IMG/VR virus record: IMGVR_UViG_3300007735_000721
Location: 1-40,185 of that record
Direction: 5' to 3' (one strand)
DNA: 40,185 nucleotides
Origin: a virus
Positions 2,693 through 37,547 of this stretch are shown here, piece by piece (within the stretch, counting starts at the first letter, position 1; the number at the start of each line of letters is the position of its first letter). The notes beneath the pieces are model-generated. The model was not told the DNA's origin, made no database searches, and was given only the letters and a program-made list of their open reading frames with translations. The translations under genes were made by a program, and so were the position numbers.

Positions 2693-3007
2693 CTAAGCGA
2701 CTTTAATCATCGCCTTCAAAACGGTCACAGCCGCTTGTACGGATTCCGGCGGTAATTTGTTTACCAGAAGCGTCAATTCGCTAGGGGCACCTGGAAGCCT
2801 GCCAATTAAGTCGGCCGGTTCGCACCCCAGAGCGTCGGCGAACGCCTCCAGGATCGGCTGTGAGTAGGGCTGCTCGCCCCTTTCAATGCGGGACACGGTC
2901 GGCTGGCTGACACCTACCCGCGAGGCAAGCTGCACAAGAGTCAACCCCCGGTACTTGCGCCACTCCCTTATGAAGACTCGTTTTGCCATGCCCATAAAAT
3001 GATGCAT
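2693..3007 (-). CDS. CI-like repressor, short helix-turn-helix protein
   Basis: The 104-residue protein has a Cro/CI-type helix-turn-helix at about residues 20-60: LTLVQLASRVGVSQPTVSRIERG, typical of the XRE family. It lacks a LexA-like self-cleavage domain, so induction is unlikely to be by RecA-driven cleavage. It faces away from a second helix-turn-helix gene across shared operators, as CI and Cro do. The start at 3005-3007 is chosen because AAGGGGG lies just upstream; ATGs at 2995 and 2989 and starts at 3022-3025 are alternatives. The SD lies in the loop of a potential RNA hairpin (3000-3024). Which of the two regulators maintains lysogeny is inferred from layout. Confidence 0.8.
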   Translation of the reverse strand: MHHFMGMAKRVFIREWRKYRGLTLVQLASRVGVSQPTVSRIERGEQPYSQPILEAFADALGCEPADLIGRLPGAPSELTLLVNKLPPESVQAAVTVLKAMIKVA

Positions 3008-3024
3008 CGCACCCCCTTGCATCA
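3000..3024 (-). promoter_or_regulatory. Hairpin over the repressor ribosome binding site
   Basis: In the leftward transcript TGATGCA (3024-3018) can pair with TGCATCA (3006-3000). The 11-base loop contains the SD AGGGGG, and the start codon straddles the loop and stem. Such a structure could make repressor translation dependent on protein or temperature, but it may also be chance. Confidence 0.4.
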
Positions 3025-3046
3025 AATATTCACTGGGTGTAATTAT
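3017..3046 (+). promoter_or_regulatory. Rightward early promoter pR
   Basis: TTGCAT (3017-3022) is a plausible -35. Possible -10 boxes are TGTAAT (3038-3043, five of six consensus bases, spacer 15) or AATTAT (3041-3046, spacer 18). Either puts the transcript start only a few bases before, or at, the cro ATG at 3054. The promoter is interleaved with the right operators. Confidence 0.55.
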
Positions 3047-3059
3047 TCACCCTATGAAA
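3028..3059. promoter_or_regulatory. Operator pair OR
   Basis: ATTCAC-TGG-GTGTAA (3028-3042) and ATTCAC-CCT-ATGAAA (3045-3059) have centres 17 bases apart and share the ATTCAC half-site of the left operator. The second covers the cro start codon. They lie between divergent regulator genes and overlap pR. Confidence 0.65.
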
Positions 3060-3263
3060 CTAGAAACCTACATCGCCCGTCAGGGCCTTACGCAAGCCGA
3101 GTTCGCTGAACTCGCAGATGTCCCGCAACCGACCATCAGCCGCCTGCTGACCGGGTACAGCCTTCGTCCCTCGTGGAAGACGCTGGCGAAAATCCATGCG
3201 GCCACCAAGGGCGCGGTCAGCGCGGGCGACTTCCTCAAGTCTCAACTTCAAGCAGCCGAATAG
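3054..3263 (+). CDS. Cro-like helix-turn-helix regulator
   Basis: The 69-residue protein is almost entirely one helix-turn-helix domain: LTQAEFAELADVPQPTISRLLTG at about residues 12-34. It is the first rightward gene, divergent from the CI-like gene, so it probably shuts off the repressor and early promoters. No Shine-Dalgarno sequence precedes its ATG; the upstream bases are operator and promoter, which suggests leaderless or near-leaderless translation. A GGGGGA nine bases before the next ATG links it to the DnaA-domain gene downstream. Confidence 0.85.
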   Translation: MKLETYIARQGLTQAEFAELADVPQPTISRLLTGYSLRPSWKTLAKIHAATKGAVSAGDFLKSQLQAAE

Positions 3264-3272
3264 GGGGAAAGT

Positions 3273-3773
3273 ATGAAAACGTACACTGACGAAATCAACG
3301 TAGCCGCCAATCTTCAGGACGAATGTGTGACAGGCGGCGGCATCAGTGCCAACGCGCGTTGTGAACCATATGCGCGGGGACTTTTGAAGCCGCAGTCTGG
3401 CGGGAACGATAACGCGGCGGCAATCGAAGGGTTGCAGACAAAACGCGCTCACATCAAGCATTTAATTGCGAAAGCCGCAGCCGATAACGGTGTCAGCTAC
3501 GAAGACATCATGAGCCGTGCTCGCCCGCAGAACATCTGCCGCGCCCGCTTCGATGCAATCGCTGCCGTGGCTAACGCTTACCCAGACATGAGCTTCCCGC
3601 GCATCGGTCGCATCTTCCAGCGGGACCACTCGTCAATTGTCCACGCGCTGATGATGCGCGGCGTGCAGCCGAGGTCGGGACGCATTCAGGAATACAAGAA
3701 ATTCGCTGCGTTAATGCAGCGGAGAGCGGTGGGGACCACAACAGAAGGAGAGACTGCACATGAAAATTCTTGA
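3273..3773 (+). CDS. DnaA domain IV (DNA-binding) protein
   Basis: This 166-residue protein contains the C-terminal DNA-binding domain of the chromosomal initiator DnaA at about residues 55-150. The diagnostic stretch is FPRIGRIF followed by RDHSSIVHA (117-125), matching DnaA's box-recognition signature (RDHTTV-A). The AAA+ ATPase and domain I are absent. The N-terminal 50 residues are unrelated and probably disordered. It may bind DnaA boxes or similar sites to control phage genes or steer host replication. It follows cro by nine bases with SD GGGGGA. It is a free-standing DNA-binding domain and not an initiator by itself. Confidence 0.85.
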   Translation: MKTYTDEINVAANLQDECVTGGGISANARCEPYARGLLKPQSGGNDNAAAIEGLQTKRAHIKHLIAKAAADNGVSYEDIMSRARPQNICRARFDAIAAVANAYPDMSFPRIGRIFQRDHSSIVHALMMRGVQPRSGRIQEYKKFAALMQRRAVGTTTEGETAHENS

Positions 3774-4056
3774 CGCATTTAAGAAAGAGACTGGCATTCA
3801 GGAAATGACGCCGGACATCATCCGCGCGCTCATCCTCGAAGTGAACAACGACCCGCTTGCTGGCCTTGGCTCACTCAGCAAGCTCGACATCATCGTTGAT
3901 AAGCTGATGGCTCAGTGGCGCATCTGTGCTGCCCAGATTCGTGGCATCCCGGTCAGGGACGCAAAGCCGCTCGTGCTGACATCGGTTGCCCCGACATCCA
4001 CGACAGTGCCTTCCGCAGAGAAGGCGGCAGCAGCCGCAAAAGCGGCGGGCATGTAA
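3760..4056 (+). CDS. Hypothetical early protein
   Basis: The 98-residue protein begins MKILDAFKKETGIQ and ends in an alanine/lysine-rich tail. Predicted helical; no family recognised. SD AAGGAGAG lies within the preceding DnaA-domain gene, which it overlaps by 14 bases, so the two are probably co-translated. It is the last gene before the terminator at 4099-4122. Confidence 0.75.
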   Translation: MKILDAFKKETGIQEMTPDIIRALILEVNNDPLAGLGSLSKLDIIVDKLMAQWRICAAQIRGIPVRDAKPLVLTSVAPTSTTVPSAEKAAAAAKAAGM

Positions 4057-4098
4057 CGGAACTGCCGCGCTTCCTGTTTCCCCGGCGCGGTCAACTAA

Positions 4099-4122
4099 GG
4101 GGGCTTCGGCCCCCACCTTTTT
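4099..4122 (+). terminator. Rho-independent terminator
   Basis: GGGGGC-TTCG-GCCCCC (4099-4114) is a perfect six-base-pair stem with a stable TTCG tetraloop, followed by ACC and five T. It separates the cro block from the replication block, so an antitermination step or read-through would set the level of the latter. Confidence 0.85.
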
Positions 4123-4135
4123 CCTCTGGTGACCC

Positions 4136-4450
4136 ATGCGAGTAGTCAACAAATACCGCGCACAGCCAGTTCGTGACGAAGACGGCTACTTCGCGTCCAA
4201 GAAAGAACACAAGCACTGGCAGGTGCTGAAACTGCGCCAGCGCGCAGGAGAGATCAGCAAGTTGGAGCGCCAGGTGCGCTTCCGGCTTGAGCACAACGGA
4301 ATTCACATCTGCGATTACGTGGCCGACTTCGTCTACTTCGAAGGTCAGCGCCGCGTGGTCTGCGATGTCAAGGGCTTCATCACATCTGAATTCAAACTCA
4401 AGGCAAAGCTCATGAGAGCGTTGCTCAACATCGAAGTGGAGACAGTCTAA
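4136..4450 (+). CDS. DUF1064-family phage nuclease-like protein
   Basis: The 104-residue protein matches the DUF1064 pattern: YFASKKEHKHWQVLKLRQRAGEI, then YVADFVYFE and VVCDVKG, with a lysine-rich helix after it. The acidic E-D-x-K layout (Glu24 in the helix, Asp62, Asp76-Lys78) is that of a PD-(D/E)xK nuclease fold. Family members lie in phage replication blocks and may act on branched DNA, though the biochemical role is unsettled. It directly follows the terminator and overlaps the next gene by one base (TAATG). Confidence 0.75.
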   Translation: MRVVNKYRAQPVRDEDGYFASKKEHKHWQVLKLRQRAGEISKLERQVRFRLEHNGIHICDYVADFVYFEGQRRVVCDVKGFITSEFKLKAKLMRALLNIEVETV

Positions 4451-4755
4451 TGGGCGGCATCCAATCCCATCTTCCTACCCGCATGTGGACCGCGTCACGC
4501 GAGGACAGCGAACACCTTGCCATGCGTATCCGTAACTATTGGGCAGTGCGTGGCTACAAGATCGAGACGGGCGTATTTGGCTTGTCCGAACTCGGCGAGA
4601 AGTACCCGGACGGGAGCCACATCTACAGCATCAGGTCCAACATGATCGGAGGCCATCCGCCCCGTGACCCGGCAGAGCCAGTCAAAGTTACGACGCCGAA
4701 GCTTTCTCCTGTCGAGCGTGTGGCCCAACTTCAACACAAGCTGGTGCGCGCATGA
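4450..4755 (+). CDS. Hypothetical protein
   Basis: The 101-residue protein contains MRIRNYWAVRGYKIETGVF and YSIRSNMIGGHPP. The pattern of a short helix followed by strands is common in alphaproteobacterial phage and genomic-island proteins of unknown function. One-base overlap with the DUF1064 gene and four-base overlap with the next gene show co-expression. Confidence 0.75.
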   Translation: MGGIQSHLPTRMWTASREDSEHLAMRIRNYWAVRGYKIETGVFGLSELGEKYPDGSHIYSIRSNMIGGHPPRDPAEPVKVTTPKLSPVERVAQLQHKLVRA

Positions 4756-5039
4756 AAGACCTCACCGCACTTCTCATGGGAGATCCAGCGGCAGCACATA
4801 GGCGAGCGCCGACGCAAGCGGAGATGGTTCGCCCGAATGCTGTCTGCGGTCATGAGCAGGTTCGCCAGCGAGGCCGCAAGCGCACCTCTGACTATTACCA
4901 ATGGCAGGTAGGCGAGAGCCGGAACTTCGACACATTCCGCGAGGCTAAGAACAAGGTCACGGGCCTTTACCTCAAGGGCATGACGGGCTCGATCCGCTCG
5001 CGCAAAGACGGGACTTACACCGTTACCAGGATGCTGTGA
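4752..5039 (+). CDS. Hypothetical protein
   Basis: The 95-residue basic protein has a C-terminal half with strand-rich spacing (YYQWQVGESRNFDTFREAKN, SIRSRKDGTYTVTRML). It may be a small nucleic-acid-binding or regulatory protein, but no family is recognised. ATG overlaps the previous stop; the methyltransferase starts two bases after its own stop. Confidence 0.7.
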   Translation: MKDLTALLMGDPAAAHRRAPTQAEMVRPNAVCGHEQVRQRGRKRTSDYYQWQVGESRNFDTFREAKNKVTGLYLKGMTGSIRSRKDGTYTVTRML

Positions 5040-5040
5040 C

Positions 5041-5787
5041 ATGACCTACGACCCCGCCGAGAACTCACGCAAGTCCTACGATGTGGCGATAGACGCCATG
5101 CGGGAGAAACTGGCCTCGTTCAGATGTGAGCGCATCCATGATGCGGTTCTTTACCAAGGTGATTGCAGGGAAATCCTGCCTTTGCTTCCAAAGGTGGATG
5201 CTGTGGTTACTGACCCGCCTTATGGGATCAATGCCGCGCGCGACCGCAAATCAGAGAAGTGGGGCTGGAAAGATTACGACGGTGCAGGCTGGGACAAGGT
5301 GCGCCCGTGCGATGATACGCTGCGCGCGGCATTCGGGGCGGCGAAGTCTTTGATTGTTTGGGGAGGCAATTACTTTTCCGACATCTTGCCCGCAAGCGAG
5401 CGGTGGTTGATTTGGGATAAGGGCCAGACGGATTTCTCATTGGCTGACGCCGAATTGGCGTGGTGCTCTGACGCTGGGGCTGTTCGCCGCCTGATGTACC
5501 CGCGCGCGACTGCACTGCAGGACGGCAAGGTCCACCCGACCCAAAAGCCGATTGCGGTCATGGAGTGGTGTCTTGGCTTCCTTCCGAAAGCCCGAACCAT
5601 CCTCGACCCCTTCATGGGTTCCGGCACTACAGGGGTTGCCTGTGCCAAACTAGGGCGGAAGTTCATCGGCATCGAACTTGAACCCAAGTATTTCGACATA
5701 GCCTGCAAGCGCATTGATGAGGCTTACCGTCAACCCCGGCTTTTCAAGGACGAACCACCCAAGCCAAAGCAGGAGGCGCTGCTATGA
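5041..5787 (+). CDS. DNA methyltransferase (N6-adenine or N4-cytosine type)
   Basis: The 248-residue enzyme shows the two core motifs in beta-class order: DPPYG at 58-62 (catalytic motif IV), then HPTQKP (165-170) and DPFMGSGTTG (189-198, AdoMet binding). It methylates an exocyclic amino group in DNA. With no restriction partner nearby it is an orphan enzyme, most likely protecting phage DNA or altering host regulation. The specificity cannot be read from the sequence. It overlaps the replication gene by four bases (ATGA). Confidence 0.9.
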   Translation: MTYDPAENSRKSYDVAIDAMREKLASFRCERIHDAVLYQGDCREILPLLPKVDAVVTDPPYGINAARDRKSEKWGWKDYDGAGWDKVRPCDDTLRAAFGAAKSLIVWGGNYFSDILPASERWLIWDKGQTDFSLADAELAWCSDAGAVRRLMYPRATALQDGKVHPTQKPIAVMEWCLGFLPKARTILDPFMGSGTTGVACAKLGRKFIGIELEPKYFDIACKRIDEAYRQPRLFKDEPPKPKQEALL

Positions 5788-6740
5788 GCAAACCCTGGCT
5801 ACGCCTTTACAGAGACGCGCTCTACAAGCCGAAGGTCGGAAGGCTGTCCCTTGAAGAGAAGGGCTTTTGGGCCGTGTGCCTGATGGCCTCCGATGACGAG
5901 GGCGGATTGCCATCAATACCTGATCTGGCGTGGACTTTGCGCCTGTCAGAACAAGACGTTTCTGCGCTCATGCTGACCCTCGACCGTAACGGACTCGTAA
6001 CGCGTTACGTAACGGGGAACGTAACGAAGTACGCGTTACACGATTGGGACGAACATCAGCGCAAATCTGACCATGATGACAGTGCGGCAGAGCGCCAGCG
6101 CAAATGGCGCGAGCGTCAGAAAGCCGAGAAAACAGCCATTGTTGAGCCTGTCACAGACCGTAACGCGTTACGTAACGGACCCGTAACGCCGCTAGATACA
6201 GATACAGATACAGATAAGAACAACATTATGTCCGGTCCAAGTGTACCGGACGGGTTCGAGAAGTTCTGGAAGGCATACCCGCGAACGCCCAACATGAGCA
6301 AAGTGGCGGCGCTCAAAGCTTGGCAGAAGCGCAAGTGCAGCCAACTTCCTCAAGACCAACTTCTTGACGCTGTCGCGAAATACAAAGCGTTCCTGGCGTC
6401 CGAATCCAAAAAGCGCGGCAAGGAATATCCGGCCAAGCACGCACAGGGCTGGATTTCCGAGCAACGCTGGGAAGGCTTCGTGGCCGAGGCCCCGCCGCGC
6501 CCCGAAGCACATAGCCCGGATTGGGCAGACGAAATCCCCCAGTGGTCAGCTTTCAAATCAAAACTACCAGCGAGTGAATGGCAGGCATGGTTCGCAACGA
6601 GCCATCCGAACGGTGCCGTCACGACCCTCGTTGCCCCAAGTCAATTTGCTGCCGAACAGGTGGCGGCAAGGTACGGGTCAAAACTAGAGGCCCATTTCGG
6701 TGAAGCGTTCCAGATCAAAACCAAAGGAGAACCACAATGA
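5784..6740 (+). CDS. Replication initiator with winged helix and DnaA domain I-like tail
   Basis: The 318-residue protein has three parts. Residues 1-90 form a winged-helix domain as in phage O/DnaD-like replication proteins (RLSLEEKGFWAVCLMAS, LRLSEQDV). Residues 158-232 carry the FWKAYPR...KAAW-type module of phage replication proteins. Residues 254-306 (WSAFKSKLPASEWQAWF, TLVAPSQFAAEQVAARY) resemble DnaA domain I, the helicase-loading and partner-binding domain. A linker (100-150) covers repeated GTAACG motifs that look like origin iterons. It probably binds the phage origin and recruits host helicase. The domain I match is by eye and needs a profile search. Confidence 0.8.
   Translation: MSKPWLRLYRDALYKPKVGRLSLEEKGFWAVCLMASDDEGGLPSIPDLAWTLRLSEQDVSALMLTLDRNGLVTRYVTGNVTKYALHDWDEHQRKSDHDDSAAERQRKWRERQKAEKTAIVEPVTDRNALRNGPVTPLDTDTDTDKNNIMSGPSVPDGFEKFWKAYPRTPNMSKVAALKAWQKRKCSQLPQDQLLDAVAKYKAFLASESKKRGKEYPAKHAQGWISEQRWEGFVAEAPPRPEAHSPDWADEIPQWSAFKSKLPASEWQAWFATSHPNGAVTTLVAPSQFAAEQVAARYGSKLEAHFGEAFQIKTKGEPQ
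5986..6218. other. Candidate replication origin: GTAACG iterons inside the initiator gene
   Basis: Ten copies of GTAACG or its complement CGTTAC occur in two clusters: 5986, 5997, 6003(-), 6009, 6021, 6034(-) and 6160, 6166(-), 6172, 6183. Some are paired as palindromes (GTAACGCGTTAC). They are followed by an A/T-richer stretch with three tandem GATACA units (6195-6212). The copies lie in two reading frames, so protein conservation does not explain them. An intragenic iteron origin is what lambda has in gene O. Confidence 0.7.
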
Positions 6741-6967
6741 CGTTCGAAGAAATCATCGACATTCTGAAATCCACGAAGACCGACTACCAGAAGGCTGCAG
6801 ACCTACACGCTGCAATCCAAACGGCTACCAGACCCTCTGTGCTGACTCTACAGCCCCAGAAGCAGCGTAAGCCGCGTCAGGCTAAGGCGAGGAGCGTTTC
6901 GCCCGCCAGTGAGTCTGTAAATGGATTTGCGGGGCATGTGGAAAACCCAGACCAGTCGAACCACTAG
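6737..6967 (+). CDS. Hypothetical small basic protein
   Basis: The 76-residue protein has an N-terminal helix (FEEIIDILKSTKTDYQKAADLHAAI) and a basic, proline- and serine-rich tail. It overlaps the initiator stop by four bases. In analogous phages this place is held by helicase loaders or other replication accessories, but size and sequence do not allow that call. Confidence 0.65.
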   Translation: MTFEEIIDILKSTKTDYQKAADLHAAIQTATRPSVLTLQPQKQRKPRQAKARSVSPASESVNGFAGHVENPDQSNH

Positions 6968-6986: not shown

Positions 6987-7859
6987 ATGACAACTATCCA
7001 GCTAACTAGCACAAACGAAACTTGGCTTAACCGCCACATCCAGACATCAAAGTTCCGCCGCGTGTCTCTTGTCGGCATTACGGTCACGCCCGATTTGGCG
7101 AAGGAGATGCTGGCGCGCAACGAAGGCAACCGAGTCAAGCGCGTGGCTCATGTTGGCGCTCTCGCTCAGGCAATCAAAAGCGGTGATTGGATCGAAACGG
7201 GCGATACCATCAAGTTTGATACTAACGGTCGACTTCTGGACGGACAGCACCGCCTGTCTGCCATAATTCAGGCCAACACATCAGTTGTTGCTGACGTGGT
7301 CTTTGGGGTAACGCCAGAGGCGTTTGACCGAATTGACACAGGGATGGCGCGTACCCATTCGCAGATTTTGGCAATGGTCGGCATCAAAGACGGCCCACTG
7401 CTGACTTCCGCTACGCGCGTCCTGCTGGCCCTGAATCGCGGCCTGTCGCACGCCGGGAGTGTGTCGGCATCCAAGCACGAGGTGGTGGAGTTTATCAAGG
7501 CCAACCACGACTTGATTGCGTCAGCCCGCGTTGCTGAAAGAGTGAGAAAGGCGATTGGCCGAATTGCAAGCCCTGGCGGACTGACGGCGGCAGTGTACCT
7601 CATTAACAAGCGCGTCGGCACGGACATAACCCCATTTATTGACCAGCTTTGCTCTGGGGCGGGTCTGAATGCTGAAAGCCCAATTCTTGCCCTCCGCAAC
7701 AGATTTATTCGATCAAGTGGAAAGGCCAGAAACAAGATCGACGGCGTCGAGGCGACGGCCTTGGTCATCAAGGCGTTCAACGCATGGCACGAAGGACGCC
7801 CGATGAAGCAACTGTCTTGGCGGGTTGCCGACGAAGAGTTTCCGGTGGTGGGAGGCTAA
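6987..7859 (+). CDS. ParB-like nuclease-domain protein
   Basis: The 290-residue protein has the ParB/Srx-type core: ITVTPDLAKEML near residues 31-42, then a helix with HVGALAQAIKSGDWIETGDTI and the hallmark DGQHRL at 85-90. Residues beyond 100 are helical and may contact DNA. Phage proteins of this family are usually unlinked to ParA and may act as nucleases, CTP-binding switches or regulators, so partitioning is not implied. A strong SD (AGGAGG) precedes the ATG by six bases. It sits between the initiator and the presumed late regulator. Confidence 0.75.
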   Translation: MTTIQLTSTNETWLNRHIQTSKFRRVSLVGITVTPDLAKEMLARNEGNRVKRVAHVGALAQAIKSGDWIETGDTIKFDTNGRLLDGQHRLSAIIQANTSVVADVVFGVTPEAFDRIDTGMARTHSQILAMVGIKDGPLLTSATRVLLALNRGLSHAGSVSASKHEVVEFIKANHDLIASARVAERVRKAIGRIASPGGLTAAVYLINKRVGTDITPFIDQLCSGAGLNAESPILALRNRFIRSSGKARNKIDGVEATALVIKAFNAWHEGRPMKQLSWRVADEEFPVVGG

Positions 7860-7860
7860 T

Positions 7861-8133
7861 TTGCCCATTGAGTTCTGGAAAGCAAAAACCGGGTGGTTCT
7901 GGACCGCCCGGTCATCCAACGGGAAGGTCATATCCGACAGCGCGGAGATTTATTCCTCCCGCGCCAAGGCAGTGAATGGTGCAAAGGCAACAGCTCAGGA
8001 GTTCCGACAGTGGCAAATCGAAAGCGCAAGGAAGAGCCTCAAGAGTCAGATTTCGGGACGCCAGAAGCCCGCCGTCAAGCGTTCCACGTCATCGAGCAGC
8101 CAGATCCGGGCGACCGGGCGTCGAGGAGGGTGA
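7861..8133 (+). CDS. YegP/DUF1508-like small protein
   Basis: The TTG at 7861, preceded by GGGAGG at about 7850, starts a 90-residue protein. Residues 4-50 (FWKAKTGWFWTARSSNGKV, then YSSRAKAVNGAKA) match the YegP/DUF1508 fold, a strand-strand-helix unit of unknown function. The last 35 residues are a basic serine-rich tail. It starts two bases after the ParB-like stop. An upstream ATG at 7825 in the same frame overlaps the ParB gene and lacks a matching SD. Confidence 0.65.
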   Translation: MPIEFWKAKTGWFWTARSSNGKVISDSAEIYSSRAKAVNGAKATAQEFRQWQIESARKSLKSQISGRQKPAVKRSTSSSSQIRATGRRGG

Positions 8134-8135
8134 GG

Positions 8136-8519
8136 GTGGAGCAGGACATGGTGGAATGGTACTTGCGCAGAAACTACATCACCACTGTCCAGGCTGATGC
8201 GCTCAAGAAGTGGCAGGCCGATGCTTACCTTGCCGGGCTGATGCCAGCCTGTATCGGAGGCTACGGCCAGACCGTTAGCGGCGGAACGGCTGAGTTCAGC
8301 GACATGCGGGTAGCGGCTATCGCCCGACGGTCTAACGCCATCATTTTCCTCACCAACCTAAGCAAGCACGCTGTGCCTATGGTGGATGCGGTCGCGGTCA
8401 ATGGCAAATCAGCAGGCAGGTGGATGATGGAGCATGTCGGCGGATCTCCGCACGAGGCCATGCTGTGGCTTCAGAGATTCACGGATGCACTTGCCCGTCA
8501 CTTCGGGCTGACGCGCTAG
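8136..8519 (+). CDS. DUF6456-like protein, candidate Q-type late antiterminator
   Basis: The GTG at 8136 has a strong SD (GAGGAGG, six-base spacer) just after the preceding stop; it gives 127 residues. An alternative GTG at 8010 gives 169 residues but overlaps the previous gene by 124 bases. The product resembles DUF6456 proteins: WYLRRNYITTVQADALKKWQADAYLAGL near the start and LQRFTDALARHFGL at the end. As I recall, a DUF6456 protein (GafZ) acts as an antiterminator in the Caulobacter gene transfer agent system; this was not checked. The location, just before a promoter-terminator pair and the late genes, is where lambdoid phages carry Q. Confidence 0.6.
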   Translation: MEQDMVEWYLRRNYITTVQADALKKWQADAYLAGLMPACIGGYGQTVSGGTAEFSDMRVAAIARRSNAIIFLTNLSKHAVPMVDAVAVNGKSAGRWMMEHVGGSPHEAMLWLQRFTDALARHFGLTR

Positions 8520-8617: not shown

Positions 8618-8652
8618 AGGGGTCTCGGCTTTGTCGGGGCCCCTTTCTTTTT
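8618..8652 (+). terminator. Terminator before the first late gene
   Basis: AGGGGTC (8618-8624) pairs with GGCCCCT (8638-8644), including one G-T pair, with an inner CGGC/GTCG stem. It is followed by TTTCTTTTT. It ends just before the SD of the first late gene (GAGGTG, 8653-8658), so transcription into the late operon must read through it. Confidence 0.75.
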
Positions 8653-11378: not shown

Positions 11379-13538
11379 ATGGCAAAAGCGCAATCCAAGC
11401 AGAAGTCTGAGGACGACTACTTCGAAGCCGTAAAGCGCAAAGCCACGGCTGCTATGGATATGCTGGACAAGGCGCGTCGCGCGGCCCAGCAATATCAAGC
11501 GTATTATGACGGGGACCAGTGGACAACTGACGAGCGGCGCATCCTTGAGGCCCGTGGTCAGCCTGCCTTGGTCTTCAACCACATAAAGCCATCCGTGAAT
11601 GCTATCATCGGCATTGTTGAGCGTGGCCGCACGGATCCGAAGGGCTGGGGCAGGACACCTCGTGACCAAGAGGCTGCGGAAGTAGCCACGGACGGCCTGC
11701 GCTACGTCTCAGACGTGACCCGGTACAACGCAACGGCGCGCGAGTGCCTGCAGGACTTCCTCATCTGGGGGATTGTCGCGGGCATCAACGAGGCCGACAC
11801 GAACGGGGAATTCGGCATCAGGCGCATCCGGCCTGAAGAATTCTTCTACGATCCGTACAGCCGCGACCGTGACTTCGGTGACGCGAGGTACATGGGAATA
11901 GCCAAGTGGATGGATGAGGTTGACCTTGTCGACCTTTACCCGGACGCGAAAGACAAGATCAAGACCAGCTTCGACTTCTCGGCTCCCGGCGACACCTTCG
12001 GCGACAGGCCACGTGACGGCTGGTCATGGGTGGACACCAAAAAGCGCAGGATCATGTGCTTTGAGATGTACTCAAGGCGCGGCGCTGAATGGCGCAAGTG
12101 CGTGTTCGTCTATGGTGGGGTCTTGGAAGAGGGGCCAAGCCCTTACCTCGACAGCAAGACCAAGCAGCCGCGTAACCCGATTATCGCTCAGAGCGCCTAC
12201 GTAGACATCGACAACTGCCGCTATGGCGTTGTTAAGGACATGATGAGTCCGCAGGACGCCATCAACAAGGCGCGCTCCAAGGCTGTTCACATCCTAAACG
12301 TCTCCAAGCTTCGTGTGTCCAGGCAGGTGCAGGACATTGACGGTGTCAGGCGCGAATGGGCCAAGCCTGACGGCATCATTGAGGCTGAAGACGGGCAGAT
12401 CGAGGAACTTGGTGACAGGCAACTGGCCCCGGCTCACCTTGAGCTTCTGCGTGACGCCAAGGAAGAGATGCGCCGTCAGTCCCCGACACCGGGCATAGTT
12501 GGCCGTCAGGGCGCGTCACAGAGCGGCAGGGCAATCCTTGCCGAGCAGCAGGCTGGCTTGACCGAGCAGGCCCCATTGCTGGCTGGCTTTGATGACTGGA
12601 AGCTCCGTTGCTATCGGGCAATGTGGGAAAGCATCAAGCAATTTTGGACCGGGCCGAAGTGGGTGCGCGTCACGGATGATGAGCAGGCCCCGCGCTTTGT
12701 AGGCATCAACATCCCGCAGCCTGTTGTGGACCCCATGACAGGACAGCCACAGATTGACCCGATGACAGGTCAGCCCATCACGCAGGTGCAGAACAACCCG
12801 GCTGAGATGGACGTGGACATTGTAATTGACAGCACTCCAGACACGGCGGTTATCCAAGAAGAGCAGTTCAGCCGCTTGGCTGAGTTGGCTGGCTCTGGAA
12901 TGCCTATCCCGCCTGATGTGCTGATTGAGGCCAGTTCGCTGCCGAAGAAGAAGCAGTTGCTGGACAAACTGAAGCAGGCGCAGGAACAGCAATCTCAGCA
13001 GCCCAATCCGCTCGCACTGGAGCAGCAGAAGGCCGAGTTCCAGATGCAGGCCAAGATGAAGCTGGCTGAGATGGACGCTCAGGCTCATGCGGCCAAGCTG
13101 CAGCGTGAAGACGAAGCGGGCCAGCGTGAGGCAATGCGCCTTGAAGCCCTTGAGAACCTGAAGCTAGCCGCAAAGCAGCGGTCGGCTGAGATGGACCTTG
13201 AGGTCAACGCCCGCAAGCGCATGGCTGACATGGACCACGAGCAGCGCCGCAACGCAATGAGCCTGGAGCATGTGAGCGCGTCCAAGCAGATGGAAATGGA
13301 ATTCAACCAAGCCTCTGCCGAGAAGCAGGCCAAGGGCATGGGCGAGAGCATCGGGCAGGCCATCCTGCAGAGCAACAGCAACACTGCCGAGGCAATGGCT
13401 CAGGCGGCTGATGCTATGGCACAGGCAGCGGGTGCTATCGTTCAGGTTGCCAAGGTCGTGGCTGCGCCTAAGCGCCTCGTCAAAGACCCACGCACGGGTG
13501 AGAAGCGGGTGGAGATTGTACCGAGCGGGCTGAACTGA
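11379..13538 (+). CDS. Portal protein, P22 type
   Basis: The 719-residue protein matches P22-like portals in length and order. An N-terminal helical wing (YQAYYDGDQWTTDERRILEARGQPALVFNHIKPSVNAIIG) leads to a core with RRIRPEEFFYDPYSRD and the stem (TPGIVGRQGASQSGRAIL). Tandem DPMTGQP repeats lie at about 450-462. The last 200 residues form a long glutamine-, alanine- and methionine-rich coiled coil, the barrel seen in P22. It forms the dodecameric DNA channel. It begins directly after the TerL stop. Confidence 0.92.
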   Translation: MAKAQSKQKSEDDYFEAVKRKATAAMDMLDKARRAAQQYQAYYDGDQWTTDERRILEARGQPALVFNHIKPSVNAIIGIVERGRTDPKGWGRTPRDQEAAEVATDGLRYVSDVTRYNATARECLQDFLIWGIVAGINEADTNGEFGIRRIRPEEFFYDPYSRDRDFGDARYMGIAKWMDEVDLVDLYPDAKDKIKTSFDFSAPGDTFGDRPRDGWSWVDTKKRRIMCFEMYSRRGAEWRKCVFVYGGVLEEGPSPYLDSKTKQPRNPIIAQSAYVDIDNCRYGVVKDMMSPQDAINKARSKAVHILNVSKLRVSRQVQDIDGVRREWAKPDGIIEAEDGQIEELGDRQLAPAHLELLRDAKEEMRRQSPTPGIVGRQGASQSGRAILAEQQAGLTEQAPLLAGFDDWKLRCYRAMWESIKQFWTGPKWVRVTDDEQAPRFVGINIPQPVVDPMTGQPQIDPMTGQPITQVQNNPAEMDVDIVIDSTPDTAVIQEEQFSRLAELAGSGMPIPPDVLIEASSLPKKKQLLDKLKQAQEQQSQQPNPLALEQQKAEFQMQAKMKLAEMDAQAHAAKLQREDEAGQREAMRLEALENLKLAAKQRSAEMDLEVNARKRMADMDHEQRRNAMSLEHVSASKQMEMEFNQASAEKQAKGMGESIGQAILQSNSNTAEAMAQAADAMAQAAGAIVQVAKVVAAPKRLVKDPRTGEKRVEIVPSGLN

Positions 13539-36470: not shown

Positions 36471-37547
36471 TTATTTCAGTGGCTTAGGTGCGTGTTTCCC
36501 AGAACGGGGTAAAAGTTTCCCAAATTCTGGTTCGCTTTTCGGCCCGATCAGGCGGTCTGCCGCGCCCTCTGCCAGCCGCTTCTGGTCAGCGTCCCGCGTG
36601 TACCGCTGGACCTCGCCAAGCGTCTTGTGACCCGTGATGGATTGGATTTCGTGGGCCGTGCATCCGGCGTTTGCTAGGCGGGTGGCCGCAGCTTTGCGAA
36701 GCCCATGAGCCGAGCAGGACTGAAGCCCCGCCTTCCGGCACGCAGCCCCGAACCAGTTCCCGAACCCTGCCGGGGTGAAGGGCTTTCCGTGAGCGGTTTC
36801 CAGATACGTCAGCGACCCGGTCGGCCCTGCCTCAATGGCTTGCCTCAGAGGCTCCACGATGGGGATGGTCAGGCGAACCCCGGTCTTGACCTGGCGGAAA
36901 GTGAGCGCCCCATTTGTGGCATGCTGCTTGCCAAGCCTCACCACGTCAGACCGTCTCTGCGCGGTGTACAGCAGCAGGGCCAAGGCCAGCCGCTCCCGCG
37001 TGCCCATAGGCCAGACGGTCTCAAACTTCCCCACGTCCTCATCCGTCCATGAGTGGAACCCGGTCGACTTCGTGCGGACCTTCTTCAGCCCTGCGGTCGG
37101 GTCTGACGCGAGCATCTCCCGAACCACGGCATAGCGGCAGACGTGACGGATAGCCCGCAGCATCATGTTGCTTGGCTCCGGCTTCAACTGATCCCGGATG
37201 GCAATGATGTTTTTCCGGGTCAGGACTTCCTTGGGCTTGTCCCCGTTCTTCACCCTGAGACGCTCCAAGGTGGCGCGATATTGCATCTGCGTGGCCTTGG
37301 ACAGAGAGCCATATTCAGGGCTGGTGTAGTAGGCGGCGAGCAGGGCAGACAGTGAGCCGGGAAGGGTACGTGATGCCCCTAGTTCCGCCTTCTCGTTTTT
37401 CCATTCCTGCCAAGCGGCGATGAACTCAGGCGAGCCGTACACCCCCGGCAGCATGATTTCAGGCTTGCCCTTGCCCCGCGCGCGCCACCTGATGCGCCCG
37501 TCCCGCCCCTTATGCTTTGACACGCCGGGGAAGTTCTTATCCCTCAT
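36471..37547 (-). CDS. int: Tyrosine recombinase integrase
   Basis: The 358-residue enzyme carries the full catalytic set: Arg198 (AQRRSD), Lys221 (QVKTG), His281 and Arg284 (HGLR), His307 (GHK) and nucleophile Tyr316 (VQRYTRDA). A SAM-like core-binding domain covers about 60-150 and an N-terminal basic DNA-binding part about 1-55. It integrates and excises the phage at an att site. The start codon overlaps the stop of a small upstream gene (ATGA). It is transcribed in the leftward operon. Confidence 0.93.
   Translation of the reverse strand: MRDKNFPGVSKHKGRDGRIRWRARGKGKPEIMLPGVYGSPEFIAAWQEWKNEKAELGASRTLPGSLSALLAAYYTSPEYGSLSKATQMQYRATLERLRVKNGDKPKEVLTRKNIIAIRDQLKPEPSNMMLRAIRHVCRYAVVREMLASDPTAGLKKVRTKSTGFHSWTDEDVGKFETVWPMGTRERLALALLLYTAQRRSDVVRLGKQHATNGALTFRQVKTGVRLTIPIVEPLRQAIEAGPTGSLTYLETAHGKPFTPAGFGNWFGAACRKAGLQSCSAHGLRKAAATRLANAGCTAHEIQSITGHKTLGEVQRYTRDADQKRLAEGAADRLIGPKSEPEFGKLLPRSGKHAPKPLK

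Follow-up and report, generated by a model that had tools for sequence, protein, structure and literature searches.

A temperate phage with a free-standing DnaA domain IV protein and a domain I-tailed initiator, two modules that probably have separate jobs

Two pieces of the bacterial initiator DnaA are encoded by separate genes of a temperate phage, which raises the question whether they act as a pair or do different jobs. The phage is represented by virus record IMGVR_UViG_3300007735_000721, whose 40,185 bases, analysed as a whole, are called the window. One protein, P0001, is a free-standing DnaA domain IV, while the other, the replication initiator P0002, ends in a DnaA domain I. An initial annotation noticed both pieces and proposed that the phage might imitate host DnaA, or compete with it, from both ends. 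The results favour, with fair confidence, two modules with different and independent jobs, in which P0002 would be an initiator with a DnaB-capturing tail and P0001 a regulator of the GafY type. Domain identities, tail fold, iterons, exchange of modules, gene order and terminators are computational results, from which binding of DnaB, binding of DNA and activation of transcription are inferred. The two proteins and their DnaA-like parts are:

3273..3773, plus strand: P0001, free-standing DnaA domain IV protein, 166 residues, Pfam Bac_DnaA_C
3465-3650, plus strand: helix-turn-helix (HTH) domain of P0001, residues 65-126, Pfam Bac_DnaA_C match
5784..6740, plus strand: P0002, replication initiator, 318 residues, phrog_270 (replication initiation protein) 1.5e-20
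6519..6737, plus strand: P0002 tail, DnaA domain I, residues 246-318, including Glu265 and Phe288

Both domain assignments made at first sight are borne out. Residues 65-126 of P0001 match the Bac_DnaA_C hidden Markov model with E=1.8e-10 and 41.1 bits, above the cut-off of 31.5, and DnaA equivalog models match the protein over domain IV only. Residues 257-305 of P0002 match Pfam DnaA_N with E=0.0011 and 19.1 bits, under the cut-off of 24.6, so that the sequence evidence alone is borderline, but the five best matches of the predicted tail fold in the PDB are all DnaA domain I. No AAA+ match is found in either protein and the Bac_DnaA family is absent throughout the window, so the observation that neither carries an AAA+ domain stands. 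Domains I and IV are thus homologous to those of bacterial DnaA, from which the phage proteins differ in having no AAA+ domain, in having the domains in separate genes (3273-3773 and 5784-6740) and in the C-terminal position of domain I.

The AlphaFold model of the tail has a predicted local distance difference test score (pLDDT) of 86, and its top five matches (2e0g, 2wp0, 4tps), with probabilities of 0.85-0.98 and a template-modelling (TM) score of about 0.5, are domain I structures from E. coli, H. pylori and B. subtilis; DciA helicase loaders rank next. The tail is also found in the viral contigs L004, L005, L006 and L009, at 85, 75 and 49-56% identity, and in L082, while L013 carries a weak match to domain I on a second protein. 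DnaA_N is a recurrent weak Pfam match of these sister tails (E 0.00025 to 0.066), a profile built from the domain I of 23 genomic DnaA proteins matches all five tails, and the tail profile, searched the other way round, hits the N-terminal domain of genuine DnaA proteins. Phe288 of P0002, which is Phe43 of the tail, aligns to Phe46 of E. coli DnaA and is the only residue common to the five tails, the L013 tail, the tail of the Brevibacillus phage SecTim467 and E. coli DnaA. In E. coli, Phe46 makes a high-affinity contact with Leu160 of DnaB (PMC12122000).

A scan of genome contigs with the tail alignment found no relative, and a tblastn search of phages and plasmids found nothing convincing, so within the collections searched this precise tail occurs only in a group of metagenomic phages. 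DnaA_N matches once in nearly all of 199 genomes from the order that includes Mesorhizobium and twice in only four; among the matches listed, the sole second one is a frame of 469 residues, the size of DnaA. The architecture is nevertheless already known to databases from annotated phages. The initiator of SecTim467/Jenst, like P0002, joins an HTH head and a C-terminal DnaA_N in one protein; in SecTim467 both HTH_36 and DnaA_N are above the Pfam cut-offs, the fold matches and the Phe46 equivalent is kept. These are, however, Firmicute phages of 126-130 kb, and BLAST detects no similarity between their initiator and the P0002 tail. We know of no experiment on the SecTim467/Jenst initiator, and our search of the literature on phage initiators with a DnaA domain I found no functional study. 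New here are the exchangeable use of the tail, the conservation of the Phe46 equivalent and the presence of a GafY/GafZ-like set alongside.

The rest of P0002 consists of a head, a middle module and, inside the gene itself, two clusters of iterons:

5784..6053, plus strand: P0002 head, predicted winged helix, Foldseek of the full-length model
5985..6026, plus strand: iteron cluster 1, CGTAACG at 5985, 5996, 6003 (minus strand), 6008 and 6020
6159..6188, plus strand: iteron cluster 2, CGTAACG at 6159, 6166 (minus strand), 6171 and 6182
6193..6216, plus strand: GATACA-like hexamer repeat beside iteron cluster 2
6243..6482, plus strand: P0002 middle module (FWKAYPR ... RWEGF), common to L009 and L082

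In a Foldseek search with the full P0002 model, the head resembles MarR, ArsR and SmtB folds (probability 0.98-1.00), and it is accordingly modelled as a winged helix, at the low confidence of that model. Nine of the window's ten CGTAACG sites lie in the P0002 gene, within 204 bases, and none of 5000 synonymous-codon shuffles of the gene reaches nine sites. The GATACA-like repeat at 6193..6216 is a possible melting region. Repeats that differ in sequence and are spaced by 11 bases occur in the L006 linker and in the L013 head gene. The heads of the sister initiators differ, with DUF1376 in L006 and L009 and others in L004/L005 and in L082, and BLAST aligns the initiators of L004, L005 and L006 to P0002 in or near the tail only. 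The middle module is shared by the window, L009 and L082 and is missing from L004. The initiator is therefore modular, the same tail being joined to different heads in sister phages.

P0002 reads as a modular initiator of the lambda O type. Lambda O has a winged-helix head, iterons within its own gene and a C-terminal part that recruits the helicase, and lambda encodes a separate loader, P. P0002 shares the predicted winged-helix head, the in-gene iterons and a C-terminal part that would serve helicase recruitment; unlike lambda O it has a fused DnaA domain I, and no DnaC- or DnaB-type gene was found to correspond to lambda's separate P. Neither DnaB, an IstB/DnaC-type loader nor Bac_DnaA is found in the window or in five sister records, some of them fragmentary, and a scan of the early open reading frames found no loader, although a P protein unlike the IstB/DnaC families could still exist. 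In the mechanism proposed, the winged-helix head would bind the CGTAACG iterons, forming the specific, origin-recognising part, while the tail would be the constant part that reaches host DnaB, capturing it through the surface used by DnaA, with Phe288 in the place of Phe46. A head on the iterons and a tail capturing DnaB would let replication begin independently of DnaA and of any phage-encoded loader. That the tail recruits host DnaB directly is probably the best reading, and to this extent the initial annotation's proposal of helicase recruitment at the phage origin is well supported by inference from the domain I fold, the invariant Phe46 equivalent, the iterons in the gene and the failure to find a helicase or loader gene in the phage records.

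Several observations weigh against this reading of P0002. The full-length model is of low confidence, with a pLDDT of 59 overall and 62-84 across most of the head; no sister tail exceeds Pfam's cut-off for DnaA_N; and HHalign of the tail profile with the single E. coli domain I sequence gives a probability of 7.8 and E 0.0045. Glu265 matches Glu21 of E. coli DnaA, but alphaproteobacterial DnaA has another residue there. By PHROG, the middle module resembles DnaD-like loaders and could itself recruit the helicase. This last point opens the way for an alternative in which the tail is a KH-like domain with a target other than DnaB (a DciA partner, single-stranded DNA or a DiaA-like protein), while loading of the helicase falls to the DnaD-like middle module or to a loader of the host. 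The rank of the DciA structures, directly below DnaA domain I in the fold search, and L012, which does without the tail, are also in its favour. We regard it as unlikely, given that DnaA domain I takes all five top places in the fold search, that the DnaB-contacting Phe is the one residue conserved everywhere and that the tail of L004 occurs in the absence of a middle module.

The second question is what P0001 does. Its size fits that of the free-standing domain IV proteins of the GafY/HdaB type, about 140-170 residues, and its homologs in sister phages are 59-73% identical. GafY/HdaB is a transcription activator of gene transfer agents that acts with IHF and with GafZ, an antiterminator (PMC9632790, PMC11150451). 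P0001 retains the equivalents of DnaA Arg399, Arg407, Pro423, Asp433 and His434, has Ser at the equivalents of Thr435/436, and has lost both Arg442 and Lys443, which are replaced by Met127 and Met128. In a tree of domain IV, P0001 groups with proteins from Mesorhizobium and Tianweitania prophages, outside DnaA. Two results speak against a GafY-like role: the DnaA-box residues Asp118 and His119 are better kept than in GafY, so that P0001 may bind DnaA boxes, and the tree, which is weakly resolved, places P0001 apart from the GafY used in it (L064), whose gene adjoins MucR-, DUF6456- and SufE-like genes.

The P0001 gene lies in an early unit and is separated from a candidate partner gene that directly precedes the late genes:

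3054..3263, plus strand: Cro-like HTH protein, Pfam HTH_3 6e-8
3760..4056, plus strand: orf98, conserved partner overlapping the end of P0001, no Pfam or PHROG match
4099..4119, plus strand: intrinsic terminator GGGGGC-TTCG-GCCCCC followed by a T run, closing the cro/P0001/orf98 unit, conserved in sister phages
8010..8519, plus strand: remote GafZ/DUF6456-like protein in the lambda Q slot, from homology to L009 and L082 proteins and HHalign
8618..8644, plus strand: strong terminator (-20 kcal/mol), tR'-like, separating the GafZ-like gene from the late genes

In all of the sister loci examined (L002, L009, L011, L012, L013 and L082), a small Cro-like or HTH-like gene lies ahead of the domain IV gene, which is followed by orf98, with counterparts in L002, L009, L011, L012 and L013, or by another small gene. 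The terminator keeps its place across the window, L002, L011, L012 and L013, and the order from cro through domain IV and orf98 to the terminator is constant, while the genes past the terminator vary between sisters. P0001 thus stands where an immediate-early regulator would be expected, in the cII slot. The stretch around the terminator, window 4045-4135, is unusually conserved among sister phages, including GGTCAACT ahead of the hairpin, and is possibly more than a terminator.

Since orf98 has no Pfam or PHROG match, the neighbour of P0001 is not recognisable as DUF6456, the GafZ family, and the remote GafZ-like gene is found instead at 8010-8519, as the last gene ahead of the late genes. 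This gene's link to DUF6456 is indirect, through its sister homologs, which tells against the partnership: DUF6456 matches the L009 protein with E=1.1e-4, the L082 protein with E=0.035 and the 10.7-kb L082 record with 1.9e-4, all under the cut-off. The protein of the window matches its homologs in L082 and L009 with BLAST E values of 4.6e-8 and 9.7e-6 in a small local database, and HHalign against a profile that includes real GafZ gives a probability of 97. The chain of homology from this protein to GafZ is remote and serves as a lead. A terminator stands at the same place behind the GafZ-like gene in the window, L002, L009, L012, L013 and L082, an arrangement that recalls lambda Q and tR'. 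In Mesorhizobium prophages the domain IV gene directly precedes a NusG-like gene (L019, Pfam NusG 9.7e-13); a NusG-like gene was sought in the phage group and none was found. In prophages of Mesorhizobium and other Hyphomicrobiales (L019 7359-8803, L020 and L065), genes for an initiator-like, a domain IV and a NusG-like protein follow one another.

Judged from its sequence and surroundings, P0001 appears on balance to be a GafY-like transcription activator. It would be expressed from the immediate-early transcript that also carries cro and orf98 and, together with the GafZ/DUF6456-like protein, would probably turn on later phage genes past a terminator. The free-standing domain IV and DUF6456-type partner are shared with GafY/HdaB and GafZ of Caulobacter and GafA of Rhodobacter (PMC9632790, PMC11150451, PMC9638019). 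Unlike GafY and GafZ, the two phage genes lie apart, one after cro and the other before the late genes; P0001 falls outside the GafY cluster, and the similarity of the putative partner is remote.

A DnaA-box role for P0001 is conceivable, though not required. The window contains two DnaA boxes where 1.7 are expected, and there is no enrichment in the window or its relatives. The one strict box lies just past the initiator gene:

6937..6945, minus strand: single strict DnaA box TTTTCCACA at the 3' end of orf76 (6737-6967)

It recurs at the same place behind the initiator in the sisters with orf76 (L002 10535, L005 3086, L011 8694, L012 5895 and L013 6626), and in L009 a strict box (TTWTCCACA) lies 24 bp before the initiator; L082 has no DnaA box. 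The position at orf76 is confounded, as the box lies within the coding of a conserved peptide, GHV[DE]N, and the Asp/Glu change in this peptide coincides with the degenerate position of the box. At the same motif (AGHVDN), another phage, L080 (IMGVR_UViG_3300029893_000036), carries four TTATCCACA boxes at 225-275, one inverted and three direct, with 12-base spacing, and this phage has no domain IV gene.

P0001 might then be a replication co-factor that sits on the conserved box near the initiator and bends or marks the phage origin, without a role in transcription. The conserved position of the box speaks for this, as do Rhizobium phage RHph_N28_2 and Mesorhizobium prophages, where the domain IV gene adjoins an initiator-like gene. 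It is nevertheless a doubtful explanation, since P0001 belongs to the immediate-early unit ahead of the terminator and not to the replication cassette that is swapped, and the box is confounded with the peptide motif and absent in L082.

The remaining alternative is the two-ended mimic of the initial annotation, in which P0001 would act on DnaA boxes, whether in the host origin or in cell-cycle promoters, while P0002 would act at the origin of the phage. It could draw on the Arg399, Arg407, Pro423, Asp433 and His434 equivalents, on the strict box near the initiator gene in the window, the orf76 sisters and L009, and on the joint occurrence of domain IV and tail in the window, L002, L006, L009, L013 and L082. 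The two pieces, however, assort independently: domain IV occurs without the tail in L012, and without an extra DnaA_N in Rhizobium phages, Pelagibacter phage HTVC035P and Mesorhizobium genomes and prophages. In addition, the Arg442 and Lys443 equivalents are lost, and HdaB, the sole published free-standing domain IV protein, has since been re-read as a transcription activator (PMC9632790). With independent assortment, boxes at chance level, confounded and missing in L082, and a four-box array in a phage without domain IV, the two-ended mimic is unsupported and improbable; the pieces are not two ends of one mimic, and the immediate-early cassette and GafY-like company make a role of P0001 in phage transcription likelier than imitation of, or competition with, host DnaA.

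If two separate jobs are the correct reading, one domain of the cellular initiator serves as a plug-in adaptor, phages can swap the origin-binding part while keeping access to host DnaB, and a minimal system of two parts would suffice to test helicase recruitment. The domain IV half would tie phage early genes to GafY and GafZ, whose origin and mechanism are open questions in the biology of gene transfer agents. Tentatively, temperate phages may carry a split GafA-type switch, with a GafY-like protein after Cro and a GafZ-like antiterminator in the Q slot before a tR'-like terminator, which would represent the stock of the alphaproteobacterial gene transfer agent master regulators, in addition to domain I as an exchangeable helicase adaptor.

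Other recognisable genes are in keeping with a temperate phage:

2693..3025, minus strand: CI-like HTH repressor, Pfam HTH_31/HTH_3
36471-37547, minus strand: integrase, recognised by sequence

Pointers to the host diverge: the nearest relatives of P0001 are Hyphomicrobiales prophages, while the best phage match of the portal protein is a cyanophage, Pam1, and its plasmid matches are alphaproteobacterial. The nearest relatives of this portal protein (11379-13538) are those of Pseudanabaena phage Pam1 and a Caenibius phage-plasmid (NZ_CP081845). Directly past the replication region, at 6987-7859, is a phrog_5931 protein with weak DndB/ParB-like matches, and a Rad52-family annealing protein (Pfam 5.8e-20) is encoded at 441-1133 on the minus strand.

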